Source of the DNA: Alphaproteobacteria bacterium
GTDB lineage: Bacteria; Pseudomonadota; Alphaproteobacteria; Sphingomonadales; Kordiimonadaceae
Direction: 5' to 3'
Assembly (NCBI GenBank): GCA_006226495.1
Contig: SBGU01000007.1
Coordinates: forward strand, 62,001-126,000
Length of the DNA stretch: 64,000 nucleotides
Made by a program: the position numbers and the translations under genes. The first letter of the stretch is position 1; each line of letters opens with the position of its first letter. Of this stretch, positions 15,691 to 19,996 are shown in pieces. Under the pieces are notes generated by a model. It made no database searches and was not told the DNA's origin. It saw only the letters and a list, made by a program, of their open reading frames with translations.

Positions 15691-16737
15691 TCACAACAGC
15701 CCGTGTTTCTTGAGGCCGTGGCGGAACTGGTCGTAGCTGAGGCCGGCATGGTGGGCGGCGGCGCGCTGGTTGTAGCGGCAGGCTTCGAGCGCCCGTTCAT
15801 AGAGGTTCTTTTCCTGCGCCGCGACCTCGGCCCGAAGGTCGAAAGGGCCGTCCGGAAGGGTGCATGAAGTTGTTGCATCTGCAACAGAAGCGGCCCCTTG
15901 TGCAACAGTTTGCACCACAATGGGGGCAGGTGCCGCCCTGTTGCGTTTCACCGGTGGGCGGAACGGGCTGTCGAACGGGTCGAAGACAATATCGCACACC
16001 GGTTTTTCACCGTCCCAGGCACGATAGAGCGCGCGGTCGACCACATTCTTGAGTTCCCGCACATTGCCCGGCCAATTATAGCCGAGCATCTGGTCAAGCG
16101 CCTTGTCGCTGAAGCCGGGGAAATGCAGCCACTCGAGTTCGCCCGCCATGGCGCGGCCAAAATGGTTGGCGAGCTGGGGGATATCTTCGGGCCGGTCCCT
16201 GAGCGGCGGCACGGTGATGACATCGAACGCCAGCCGGTCCAGAAGGTCGTGCCGGAACTCGCCGGCATCCGCCGCGGCCGGCAGGTCGATGTTGGTGGCG
16301 CCGATCACCCGCACATCAACCGCGATGGTTTCGGTGCCGCCGACCCGTTCAAATTCGCCATATTCGATGACCCGCAGCAGTTTTTCCTGGGCCGCCATGC
16401 TCATGGTGCCGATCTCGTCCAGGAACAGGCTGCCGGTGTCGGCGGCTTCGAAGCGACCGGCGCGGCGGTTGCGGGCGCCGGTGAAGGCGCCGGGTTCATA
16501 GCCGAACAGTTCGCTTTCGAGCAAGCTTTCGGCGAGCGCGGCACAGTTCATCTTCTGGAACGGCTGGTTCCAGCGGTTCGACAGATAATGCAGGCGCGCG
16601 GCGATCAGTTCCTTGCCGGTACCGCGTTCGCCGATCACCAGCATGGGCCGGTCGAGGGGGGCGGCGCGGCTGATCTGGTCCATCATGTCGAGGAACGCCG
16701 GCGATGAGCCGATAATCTGGTCGCGGTTCTGTGCCAT
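15691..16737 (-). CDS. pspF: Sigma-54 activator of the phage-shock operon, PspF
   Basis: 348 residues. The AAA+ domain (residues ~7-235) has Walker A GERGTGKE (36-43), the sigma-54-contacting loop GAFTGA (83-88), Walker B LFLDEIG (~104-110) and the NWPGNVRELKN segment near 222-232. A Fis-type helix-turn-helix (YNQRAAAHHAGLSYDQFRHGLKKHGL) closes the protein. There is no N-terminal receiver or GAF domain, as in PspF, which is instead held inactive by PspA. It is divergent from the psp operon; its probable binding sites lie directly upstream of its own start. Confidence 0.93.
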   Translation of the reverse strand: MAQNRDQIIGSSPAFLDMMDQISRAAPLDRPMLVIGERGTGKELIAARLHYLSNRWNQPFQKMNCAALAESLLESELFGYEPGAFTGARNRRAGRFEAADTGSLFLDEIGTMSMAAQEKLLRVIEYGEFERVGGTETIAVDVRVIGATNIDLPAAADAGEFRHDLLDRLAFDVITVPPLRDRPEDIPQLANHFGRAMAGELEWLHFPGFSDKALDQMLGYNWPGNVRELKNVVDRALYRAWDGEKPVCDIVFDPFDSPFRPPVKRNRAAPAPIVVQTVAQGAASVADATTSCTLPDGPFDLRAEVAAQEKNLYERALEACRYNQRAAAHHAGLSYDQFRHGLKKHGLL

Positions 16738-16857: not shown

Positions 16858-16873
16858 TGGCACGCCCCCTGCT
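16858..16873 (+). promoter_or_regulatory. Sigma-54 promoter of the psp operon
   Basis: TGGCACG-N4-CTGCT matches the -24/-12 consensus TGGCACG-N4-TTGCW in all but one position; the GG and GC pairs have the required spacing. The AT-rich stretch 16780-16856 upstream would suit an IHF-induced bend between PspF and the polymerase. Transcription should start near 16884, leaving a leader of about 60 nt. Confidence 0.9.
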
Positions 16874-16946
16874 AATAGAAAGCCGTCAGCGAGCAAAAAG
16901 ACTGACAAACAAAATGACAGCGAAACGAGACTGAAGGACCAACGCG

Positions 16947-17114
16947 ATGAACAAGATGATGCACCTGACCCCGGCTTTGAGCACGATCAACAGTGCCACC
17001 CGGGAATTTGATGGCCTGATCGCCTGTTTCGGCCTGACGCGCAAGAGCGAGGAGCGCGCCCCGGAAGCCGGTCGCCGCCAGCGTCGTCAAGCCCGCCGCC
17101 GCCGTCTTTCATAA
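16947..17114 (+). CDS. 55-residue Arg-rich small protein, first gene of the psp transcript
   Basis: An ATG at 16947 preceded by GAAGGA (8-nt spacing) opens a 55-codon frame ending at the TAA at 17112-17114. The first half is an ordinary mixed sequence (TPALSTINSATREFDGLIA), with one Cys in ACFGL, and the last 16 residues are mostly Arg/Gln (GRRQRRQARRRRLS). It lies 74 bp after the sigma-54 promoter and 153 bp before pspA, so it is stress-induced if real. I recognise no family. The basic tail could bind RNA or acidic membrane lipids; neither is shown. Confidence 0.6.
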   Translation: MNKMMHLTPALSTINSATREFDGLIACFGLTRKSEERAPEAGRRQRRQARRRRLS

Positions 17115-17129
17115 GGTCTTGTACCTTGG

Positions 17130-17161
17130 GGCCCGGTTCCCCCTTCGTGGGGTGCCGGGCC
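17130..17161 (+). other. Stem-loop between the small ORF and pspA
   Basis: GGCCCGG pairs with CCGGGCC, and an inner CCCC with GGGG, leaving a short loop. No T-run follows (AGCGAAAAAAG), so it is unlikely to be a strong terminator. An RNA processing or partial attenuation site between the two genes is plausible. Confidence 0.6.
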
Positions 17162-17267
17162 AGCGAAAAAAGAGGCCAAAGCCCATTCGCTCAGTGAGGA
17201 AGTCCTAAAAAATGGCTCAAAAAAAGCCCGGGACACATAGCGAGGAAAAAACAGAAAGGACTGTAAC

Positions 17268-18002
17268 ATGGGTATCTTCTCCCGCCTGACCGACATCATC
17301 AACTCGAACATCAACGCCATCCTGGACAAAGCGGAAGATCCGGAAAAAATCATCCGCATGGTGATCCAGGAAATGGAAGACACCCTGGTGGAAGTCCGCT
17401 CCAGCGCGGCAAAAACCATCGCCGACCGCAAGGATATCGAGCGCCGGCTGAGCAAACTGGCCCATGTCCAGCGCGACTGGGAGAAAAAGGCGGAACTGGC
17501 CATCTCCAAGGGCCGTGACGATCTTGCCAAAGGCGCGCTGATCGAAAAGTCCAAGGTTGCCGACATGGCTGCCAACCTGGCCGACGAGCTGAAACATATC
17601 GACGAGGCGCTGGTGCGCACCGAAGAGGATGTGGTCAAGCTTGAAGCCAAGCTGCGCGAAGCCCGTGCCAAGAAAGCCAGCCTGCAGGCGCGCCACAAGT
17701 CGGTATCGAACCAGGTGCGTGTGCGCAAGAACCTGTATGACAACCGCATCCAGGATGCGTTCGAGCGTTTCGAGAAAGTCGAAAACCGCCTCGACCGTAT
17801 GGAAGGTGAAGCCGAAGCCCTGGTTATGGGTCGCGGTGAAACCCTGGCCGAGCAGATCGGTGCCCTTGAAGCCGATGACGATATCGAGCAGGAACTGGCA
17901 GCCCTGAAGGCCCGCGCGTCCGGCAAGTCGACCGCATCGGTACCGGCCAGCGAACCGGCCCCGGCACCGAAAGCCCCCGCAAAAAAATCGGCGTCGAAGT
18001 AA
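17268..18002 (+). CDS. pspA: Phage shock protein A (membrane-repair scaffold, PspF inhibitor)
   Basis: 244 residues, nearly all alpha-helical coiled coil (residues ~25-215), starting with the amphipathic helix MGIFSRLTDIINSNINAIL that binds stressed membrane. The motif DPEKIIRMVIQEME is typical of PspA/IM30/ESCRT-III. Compared with the 222-residue Escherichia coli protein it has an extra C-terminal tail rich in Ala, Pro and Lys. Under rest it inhibits PspF; under envelope stress it polymerises on the inner membrane. First of the pspABC run, 42 bp before pspB. Confidence 0.96.
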   Translation: MGIFSRLTDIINSNINAILDKAEDPEKIIRMVIQEMEDTLVEVRSSAAKTIADRKDIERRLSKLAHVQRDWEKKAELAISKGRDDLAKGALIEKSKVADMAANLADELKHIDEALVRTEEDVVKLEAKLREARAKKASLQARHKSVSNQVRVRKNLYDNRIQDAFERFEKVENRLDRMEGEAEALVMGRGETLAEQIGALEADDDIEQELAALKARASGKSTASVPASEPAPAPKAPAKKSASK

Positions 18003-18043: not shown

Positions 18044-18265
18044 ATGGAAGTCGTACTGATACTGCTGGTGACCATCGTTCTGCCCGTGTGGATCATCTTC
18101 CACTATGTGACCAAATGGAAACAGATGAAGGGCATCTCGGCAGAAGACGAAGCGTCGCTTGGCGACTTGCGGAATTCGGCCGACCGCCTGGAAGACCGCC
18201 TGCGTACCATGGAACGCATCCTTGACGATGAAGTTCCGGACTGGAGGAGCCGTCATCATGACTAA
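18044..18265 (+). CDS. pspB: Phage shock protein B
   Basis: 73 residues: an N-terminal transmembrane helix (1-22) and a cytoplasmic coiled coil with the family motif ADRLEDRLRTMERILDDE. With PspC it senses inner-membrane damage and draws PspA away from PspF. AGGGAGG lies about 8 nt before the start. Its end overlaps the pspC start by 8 bp, so the two are translationally coupled. Confidence 0.92.
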   Translation: MEVVLILLVTIVLPVWIIFHYVTKWKQMKGISAEDEASLGDLRNSADRLEDRLRTMERILDDEVPDWRSRHHD

Positions 18266-18650
18266 CAATTTCAGCAAACGTCCCACCCGTCTCTATAAAG
18301 ACCCGCGTCGCGGGCGTGTGATGGGGGTCTGTGCCGGCCTTGGTGACTATTTCAGCGTCAATGTCAGCGCGGTCCGGTTCGTCCTGATCATCGGTGTGAT
18401 CATGAGCGGCGGCTGGCTCCTCCTGGGTTATCTGGCGCTCGGGTTTGCCCTCGATCCCAAACCGGAAGACCTGTACGCAGACACCCGGGAAGAGGAATTC
18501 TGGCGCCAGACCCGCCGGTCCCCGGACTATACCGCCGCCGAGATGCGCCGCCGGTTCCGCGACATCGAACGCCGCACCGCCGACATGGAGGCCTACATGA
18601 CCAGCAAGCGTTTCCGCCTGGAGCGCGAACTGAGGGCCCTTGAGGACTGA
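18258..18650 (+). CDS. pspC: Phage shock protein C
   Basis: 130 residues. A PspC domain spans ~8-70: the motif RLYKDPRRGRVMGVCAGLGDYF, then a transmembrane segment (~40-65). The cytoplasmic remainder is charged and helical (RRRFRDIERRTADMEAYM). It partners PspB as the stress sensor. The start overlaps the pspB stop. No pspD, pspE or pspG follows; a terminator closes the operon. Confidence 0.93.
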   Translation: MTNNFSKRPTRLYKDPRRGRVMGVCAGLGDYFSVNVSAVRFVLIIGVIMSGGWLLLGYLALGFALDPKPEDLYADTREEEFWRQTRRSPDYTAAEMRRRFRDIERRTADMEAYMTSKRFRLERELRALED

Positions 18651-18799: not shown

Positions 18800-19354
18800 A
18801 TGATTCAAGCGATCAACGACAGCCCCATCTTTCGTGCGGTTTACGAGGTTTGGGACAGTCTCAGGGCGGATGGCGAAACGGTGCCGACGCGGGACAGGTT
18901 CAACCCCATGGCCCTGGGGGCTGTGTTGCCGAACGTGGTGCTGGTCGAACGCACGGAGCCAGGCTCCTACATCTACAGGGTTGCCGGCACGGCGGTGAAT
19001 GAACGCATGAAGGTCGATGCGGTCGGTGTCAATATGCTCGACTATTTTGTCGCAGACGTGCGCCCGTTCCTGACCACCTGGTTCGAAGCCATGCTGTCGC
19101 ACGCCTGTGGCACCATCACCCGCATGGACCTTGTGCATCAGAACGATCCCAAACGCTCGGTCCAGGTTTTAGGCCTGCCCATGTTCGGCAGGGGCGGCCA
19201 CGGGGTCTATTATCTGTTCGGCAATGATGCCTGGCATCCGAAGGTTACCGACGATTATGGCCAATTTGTCAATGCCGGCGGCCATTATCTCGAATGCCAT
19301 GGTGTCGATATCGGCGCCGGAATCCCGGACCTGCCGAACGTCCCGGAAAACTGA
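18800..19354 (+). CDS. PAS_5-type domain protein, copy 1
   Basis: 184 residues. The motifs VYEVWDSLRA, TRDRFNPMAL and YRVAGTAVNERM, and the GVNMLDYF turn, fit the alphaproteobacterial PAS_5 family (PF07310), stand-alone PAS-like domains with no output module. About half of the residues match the gene immediately downstream, so the two arose by duplication. Cytoplasmic, no membrane segment. The ligand and partner are unknown; such proteins are often found in many copies per genome. Confidence 0.8.
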   Translation: MIQAINDSPIFRAVYEVWDSLRADGETVPTRDRFNPMALGAVLPNVVLVERTEPGSYIYRVAGTAVNERMKVDAVGVNMLDYFVADVRPFLTTWFEAMLSHACGTITRMDLVHQNDPKRSVQVLGLPMFGRGGHGVYYLFGNDAWHPKVTDDYGQFVNAGGHYLECHGVDIGAGIPDLPNVPEN

Positions 19355-19429: not shown

Positions 19430-19996
19430 ATGAATGAAGTCGTTCGCCAGAACCGCGTTTTCAGTGCGGTCTATGACGTGTGGGACAAGCTGCGCAAGCC
19501 CGGCGAGTTGGTGCCCACGCGCGACAGATTCAACCCGATGGCCCTGTCTGAAGCGCTGCCCGAAGTCGTGCTGGTCGAACGGGTGGCCCGCGGGCGTTAT
19601 GAATACCGGCTTCTGGGCACCGCCATCAACGAACGGCTGGGCGACAACCCGGTCGGCGTGAACATGCTGGACTATTTTGCGCCAAAGGTGCGGGCATTTG
19701 TGACCGACTGGTTCGAAGCCATTGCCTTCCATCCCTGCGGCGCCGCCACGCGCGCCGACATGGAGTTTGAAAACGACCCCGACAGGTTTGTGCATGCCTT
19801 TGGCCTGCCGCTTTTGGGCAAGGGCGGCGAGGGGCAGTTCTATCTTTATTGCCATGACGCCTGGCGACCGCAGCCCGGCGACAATCTGGGCCATATCGTC
19901 AGTGTCGGGGGCAGCTATATCGAAACCGAGGCTGTCGACATCGGCGCCGGGCGGCCGCTCCTGCCCAATATGCCCGGATCGGGGCCTAAGCCCTGA
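19430..19996 (+). CDS. PAS_5-type domain protein, copy 2
   Basis: 188 residues, paralogous to the preceding gene along its full length (shared VYDVWDKLRK, TRDRFNPMAL, VVLVER, NERL, GVNMLDYF, VDIGAG). The start at 19430 was chosen because it aligns with the start of copy 1, with GGGGG upstream; in-frame ATGs at 19424 and 19400 are alternatives. The gap of 75 bp to copy 1 shows no terminator, so co-transcription is likely. Function unknown. Confidence 0.8.
   Translation: MNEVVRQNRVFSAVYDVWDKLRKPGELVPTRDRFNPMALSEALPEVVLVERVARGRYEYRLLGTAINERLGDNPVGVNMLDYFAPKVRAFVTDWFEAIAFHPCGAATRADMEFENDPDRFVHAFGLPLLGKGGEGQFYLYCHDAWRPQPGDNLGHIVSVGGSYIETEAVDIGAGRPLLPNMPGSGPKP

Follow-up and report, generated by a model that had tools for sequence, protein, structure and literature searches.

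A likely new leader microprotein in the psp operon of Kordiimonas and related families, with candidate small RNA pairing sites at two start codons

The psp operon of Kordiimonas and related families likely opens with a new microprotein gene, whose product would be co-induced with PspA and is probably co-regulated with it by a small RNA (sRNA). Computation shows a coding leader cistron upstream of pspA, a conserved sRNA-like locus elsewhere in the genome, and sites complementary to that locus at matching distances from the start codons of the cistron and of pspA. The psp system is among the best-studied envelope stress systems. These observations add a new conserved protein to it and provide evidence at the sequence level, part of it covariation of two distant loci, for sRNA control of the psp mRNA. 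A leader micro-ORF did not turn up in word searches of two comparative psp surveys (PMC9239133, PMC11237479), and no report of sRNA control of psp was found in the titles and opening abstracts of the open-access literature searched, which is not proof of absence. Within the limits of this search, the leader microprotein and sRNA sites together likely constitute a psp operon variant that is apparently undescribed.

The psp locus and its leader cistron

The window, that is, the whole stretch of 64,000 nucleotides that was analysed, contains a psp locus of classical type, in which a minus-strand pspF is followed by a sigma-54 site and then by pspA, pspB and pspC. Its features are as follows.

15691..16737, minus strand: pspF, divergent, sigma-54 enhancer-binding activator (Pfam Sigma54_activat, 4.2e-62)
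16858..16873, plus strand: sigma-54 promoter TGGCACGCCCCCTGCT, identified by sequence
16933..16938, plus strand: Shine-Dalgarno sequence GAAGGA of the micro-ORF, 8 nt upstream of its ATG
16947..17114, plus strand: 55-aa leader microprotein with an Arg-rich C-terminus (conservation, coding selection, two predicted helices)
17130..17161, plus strand: GC-rich hairpin 3' of the micro-ORF
17254..17260, plus strand: pspA Shine-Dalgarno sequence GAAAGGA, held in the loop of a weak ACAG/CTGT stem
17268..18002, plus strand: pspA (Pfam PspA_IM30, 2.4e-42)
18044..18265, plus strand: pspB (Pfam PspB, 1.9e-26)
18258..18650, plus strand: pspC (Pfam PspC, 1.2e-12)

The locus meets the criteria for pspFABC membership (divergent PspF, sigma-54 site, PspA, PspB and PspC domains), and the nearest named psp locus is that of Kordiimonas marina, with a PspA identity of 86%; the genome belongs to a Kordiimonas-like alphaproteobacterium. 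Transcription of the operon is inferred to start near 16883, and the TGGCA(C/T) of the sigma-54 site retains its position in nearly all loci. The hairpin at 17130..17161 varies in sequence, and a hairpin occupies the same place in many loci of the same family. No Rfam family matched the psp leader. Two adjacent, similar genes of the PAS_5 type lie 3' of the operon (window positions 18800-19354 and 19434-19996, with PF07310 in the first).

An earlier note on this stretch had claimed an Arg-rich ORF of 55 residues, with a good ribosome site, between the sigma-54 promoter and pspA, and this is confirmed. The product, MNKMMHLTPALSTINSATREFDGLIACFGLTRKSEERAPEAGRRQRRQARRRRLS, used alone as a query against 60 related genomes, gave matches between pspF and pspA in over 20 of them. 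Every psp leader of the sampled order was read. Of the 44 psp loci in five families (f1, f2, f3, f6 and f7), 40 have a frame of about 37 to 64 codons at this place, roughly 60 to 110 nt downstream of the promoter. The frame is lost or unrecognisable in the other four (L041, L044, L047 and L059) and shortened to 37 aa in two (L042 and L046), while two f6 loci (L065 and L069) carry divergent versions counted as members on position and Arg tail only. Named carriers include K. marina, K. gwangyangensis, K. aquimaris and K. sediminis, as well as Eilatimonas milleporae, Pseudokordiimonas caeni and Rhodothalassium salexigens. No micro-ORF was seen in the psp loci of family f8, in which the whole intergenic region is only about 200 nt, and the micro-ORF family is absent from those of family f5, which have an unrelated membrane micro-ORF instead. 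In the f5 (Sphingomonad-like) leaders L077-L079 and L167, this small ORF has an N-terminal hydrophobic segment. A profile search of 387 genomes of the class returned only noise apart from the query genome; thus, detection of the family does not extend beyond the order.

The micro-ORF evolves as a protein-coding gene. The dN/dS ratio is 0.06-0.31 in close pairs and higher in distant pairs, and differences at codon positions 1, 2 and 3 number 48, 46 and 125 in five independent pairs (third-position excess, p = 5e-13). The earlier note had named two outcomes that would refute a coding role, namely a lack of conservation upstream of pspA in relatives and a non-coding dN/dS pattern; neither appeared. 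Given this conservation of frame, position and sequence ahead of pspA, and the low dN/dS, the micro-ORF is very probably translated as a leader cistron of this operon, although no ribosome-profiling or expression data exist. The suggestion that the ORF, if translated, is a new member of the phage-shock response is likewise supported by its conservation and coding selection. A spurious ORF in a GC-rich leader would be consistent with the shortness of the frame and its loss in four loci, but is all but ruled out by conservation, synteny and codon-position bias.

Another explanation is that the ORF is a cis-regulatory leader peptide: slowing of the ribosome at the Arg run would control the downstream hairpins and pspA, and the peptide itself would be inert. 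The leader position, the Arg-rich end and the structured RNA downstream speak for it. However, both halves of the protein are constrained, so that amino acid selection, with dN well below dS, spans the whole length including the N-terminal half, and Arg residues shared between members are often encoded by different synonymous codons. In addition, between about 34 and 238 nt separate the ORF stop from pspA in different loci, and where the ORF is missing the RNA elements persist, with the short leader motifs GACAGCGA, GCCYGAGTNACGACAGC and AGCGAGGA retained. The criterion for a cis attenuator, selection on codons or translation and not on the peptide, is not met, and this explanation is unlikely.

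The encoded proteins share a common pattern, consisting of an MNxLxxL N-terminus, a neutral or acidic middle and an RRxRRxxRxRR C-terminus, and have net charges of +3 to +8. AlphaFold2 predicts helices at residues 3-27 and 39-54 with moderate confidence (pLDDT 74, pTM 0.34). No transmembrane segment is present in the protein, no relative was found in the PDB, and none of 31 members matched a Pfam or NCBIfam family above cut-off, including the Psp accessory proteins and DUF1127. A Pfam Terminase_4 match (E 0.006, below cut-off) was rejected, since only one of the 31 members shows it. In the clade L049/L054 the Arg tail is lost, yet the ORF is strongly constrained (dN/dS 0.06); therefore, the tail is not the whole function. 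Binding of RNA or acidic lipids by the basic tail, as proposed in the earlier note, is still an inference.

An sRNA-like gene and its complementary sites in the psp leader

A conserved stem in the leader was at first taken as a cis element alone, a reading that was dropped because its motif recurs once per genome as the antisense of a terminator. A whole-genome search with GCCYGAGTNACGACAGC identified one perfect extra copy in nearly every f1, f2, f6 and f7 genome, against near zero for a reversed-pattern control. Read on the opposite strand, the extra copy forms the 3' portion of an sRNA-like gene about 110 nt long, of which genome G053 has two copies. This gene consists, in order, of a conserved TTGA element, two stem-loops, an unpaired UCCUCGCUGUCGUGACUC and a GC-rich terminator with a U run. 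The seed, UCCUCGCUGUCGUGACUC, is identical in all 33 sampled sRNA loci (L179, at G000:C47 near 194600-194620, L181-L186, L188-L191, L193, L195 and L197-L216). No Rfam family matched the gene at gathering score. A standard sigma-70 scan of the locus returned no complete promoter; thus, the assignment of the TTGA element as an sRNA promoter is tentative. Conservation of the locus is shown by computation, while expression of the sRNA is inferred. In several loci the gene is convergent with its upstream gene, which by eye is AhpD-like.

The psp leader of the window contains the following counterparts of the sRNA-like gene, which the earlier note had missed.

16887..16893, plus strand: seed-complementary site CAGCGAG
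16916..16923, plus strand: seed-complementary site GACAGCGA, 23 nt upstream of the micro-ORF ATG
17202..17234, plus strand: nested stem-loop GTCCTAAAAAATGGC...GCCCGGGAC, a conserved element with complementarity to the sRNA's terminator arm and U tail
17239..17246, plus strand: seed-complementary site AGCGAGGA, 21 nt upstream of the pspA ATG

Sites, defined as perfect complements of the seed of seven bases or longer, are enriched on both sides of the micro-ORF, with expectations taken from shuffles. Upstream of the micro-ORF there are 36 sites against 4.2 +/- 1.9 (present in 29 of 41 loci), and between the micro-ORF and pspA there are 79 against 7.5 +/- 2.6 (40 of 41 loci); inside the micro-ORF there is no enrichment (6 against 4.7 +/- 2.2). 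Leaders from lineages without the sRNA show no clear excess in 29 other alphaproteobacterial loci (5 sites, 6.2 expected), in 11 gammaproteobacterial loci (0 sites, 1.1 expected) or in f5 (4 sites, 3.1 expected); f8 leaders have one site against 0.1 expected, in only 191 bases. The last site lies mostly 18-27 nt from the micro-ORF ATG, with a peak at 23-24 nt, and mostly 17-28 nt from the pspA ATG, with a peak at 21-22 nt. The four loci that lack the ORF keep the sRNA sites; therefore, RNA control would be independent of the protein.

In the genome of the window itself, the seed-only duplex is not outstanding relative to shuffles (z -0.9), and the longer sRNA-leader pairing, at -46.4 kcal/mol, has no shuffle control. 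The case for the sRNA thus rests on the cross-genome pattern and the longer pairing. A Shine-Dalgarno hairpin before pspA, formed by a covarying stem around AAAGGA, was seen by eye in only around half the loci, and no claim is made for it. In L044 the conserved leader stem apparently occurs in about three tandem copies within the last 150 bases upstream of pspA.

The leader stem in Kordiimonas mirrors the terminator arm and U tail of the sRNA (AAAAARUGGC versus GCCAYUUUUU), and the two loci covary. An sRNA with GGCCAC-U(n) is accompanied by AAAAAGUGG in the leader in G003, G007, G008, G012, G016, G021 and G028, so that C in the sRNA tail accompanies G in the leader in all seven genomes having the stem. 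An sRNA with GGCCAU-U(n) goes with AAUGG or AUGG in the leader in ten genomes; U in the tail accompanies A in 10 of 11 cases, and the exception, G024, forms a G-U pair. Two changes of the sRNA C/U state are needed on a PspF+PspA tree, and a third paired change, GCCUGAG with CUCAGGC, marks family f2. The covariation therefore amounts to at least three events, which are few. It likely reflects physical pairing of the sRNA with the leader; there are no binding data, and a DNA site common to both loci cannot be formally ruled out.

Such a DNA element, for example a regulator site present in both loci without any RNA-RNA pairing, would also give two loci identical as reverse complements, since the shared site is double-stranded, and covariation by itself cannot separate the two cases. 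At the sRNA locus, however, the motif finishes with an intrinsic terminator and its U run; in the psp leader its spacing to two start codons is fixed; and its other genomic copies include two that are also at ORF ribosome sites (L219 and L221), all of which make a DNA element unlikely.

In the genome of the window, the sRNA-complementary motif of L219 is at or near the ribosome site of a membrane protein and that of L221 at or near the site of a secreted hydrolase-like ORF; the copy in L220 precedes an HlyD-like gene, and that in L218 falls within the 3' region of a putative regulator. These four loci may be additional sRNA targets. In L187 (1905-2170), away from psp, a perfect copy of the motif has an Arg-rich micro-ORF on either side (29 and 35 aa). 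Several GACACGACAGC repeats lie upstream of an ABC transporter ATPase gene in L196 (2041-2130).

Proposed mechanism and role of the microprotein

In the proposed mechanism, the micro-ORF would be the first psp cistron in Kordiimonas and related families, and PspF and sigma-54 would induce the microprotein together with PspA, as inferred from the promoter. The invariant unpaired seed of the sRNA would pair about 23 nt upstream of both start codons, and pairing would block or destabilise translation initiation of the two cistrons together. Both sRNA regulation of the psp mRNA and repression as its direction are inferences. Support for the microprotein and for the sRNA alike comes from sequence comparison, without expression, ribosome-profiling or binding data.

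A less likely alternative is that the psp mRNA is a sponge that titrates the sRNA upon psp induction, not a regulated target. The occurrence of four or more sites in some leaders and the extended complementarity, U tail included, are consistent with a sponge, whereas the constant distance from site to start codon is that expected of a translation target. The two roles are compatible, and both may hold.

The protein, with its N-terminal helix and basic C-terminal helix as predicted by the model, would be a small RNA-binding or regulatory factor of the psp stress circuit, in which the N-terminal helix may offer a protein-contact surface and the Arg helix a polyanion contact. This biochemical role is the favoured one but falls slightly short of being probable; it is inferred by analogy with small basic proteins of alphaproteobacterial sRNA circuits, CcaF1 among them, and lacks binding data. 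Nearly as credible, and still rather more doubtful than not, is a membrane or PspA accessory role, in which an amphipathic N-terminal helix and the basic tail would bind stressed anionic membrane or PspA oligomers. The psp context, a moderate hydrophobic moment in several members and the fact that other alphaproteobacteria have a tail-anchored membrane micro-ORF at this place favour this role; the lack of a transmembrane segment and the modest, non-uniform hydrophobic moment (0.27-0.51) speak against it. Under the regulatory role, a bolder reading is conceivable, in which one sRNA pairs beside both starts and the Arg-rich microprotein feeds back on the pairing. If true, the psp response of this order would contain a built-in post-transcriptional switch.

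Comparison with known systems

CcaF1 (DUF1127) is a small alphaproteobacterial RNA-binding protein encoded with stress-sRNA circuitry, the CcsR sRNAs (PMC10253847). The micro-ORF product is likewise a small alphaproteobacterial protein encoded with putative stress-sRNA circuitry; however, it has no DUF1127 match (0 of 31 members), is located in the psp leader and not with CcsR sRNAs, and has only a predicted basic helix, from which RNA binding is inferred.

The sRNA-like gene resembles SorX and SorY (RF02784, RF02651), stress-linked alphaproteobacterial sRNAs of Rhodobacter sphaeroides (PMC8307010, PMC8625941), in its stem-loop, an unpaired stretch of the CCUC(C/G)CUGU(U/C)G type and a GGCCG terminator with a U run. 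Its scores against their Rfam models are below gathering (33.6 versus 46.6 and 35 versus 111 bits), and SorX and SorY differ in having another seed and in their known targets, which are transporter mRNAs and not psp.

In other alphaproteobacteria (L117, L121, L126, L128 and L131), a tail-anchored micro-ORF occupies the same slot between the sigma-54 promoter and pspA, but has a C-terminal membrane segment and no evident sequence similarity to the Kordiimonas micro-ORF. Micro-ORFs of about 47-68 aa with a YLxxRxxExWxFFxAGxxxGxxL membrane segment were observed in these loci and in L122 and L129, and none of the tail-anchored micro-ORFs scanned matched a Pfam family.

The gammaproteobacterial pspF-pspABC system shares with the locus described here a divergent PspF, a sigma-54 promoter and the gene order pspA-pspB-pspC. 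Gammaproteobacterial loci (L168-L178) have short leaders in which no micro-ORF was found, whereas the present locus has a leader of about 385 nt and a conserved micro-ORF ahead of pspA.
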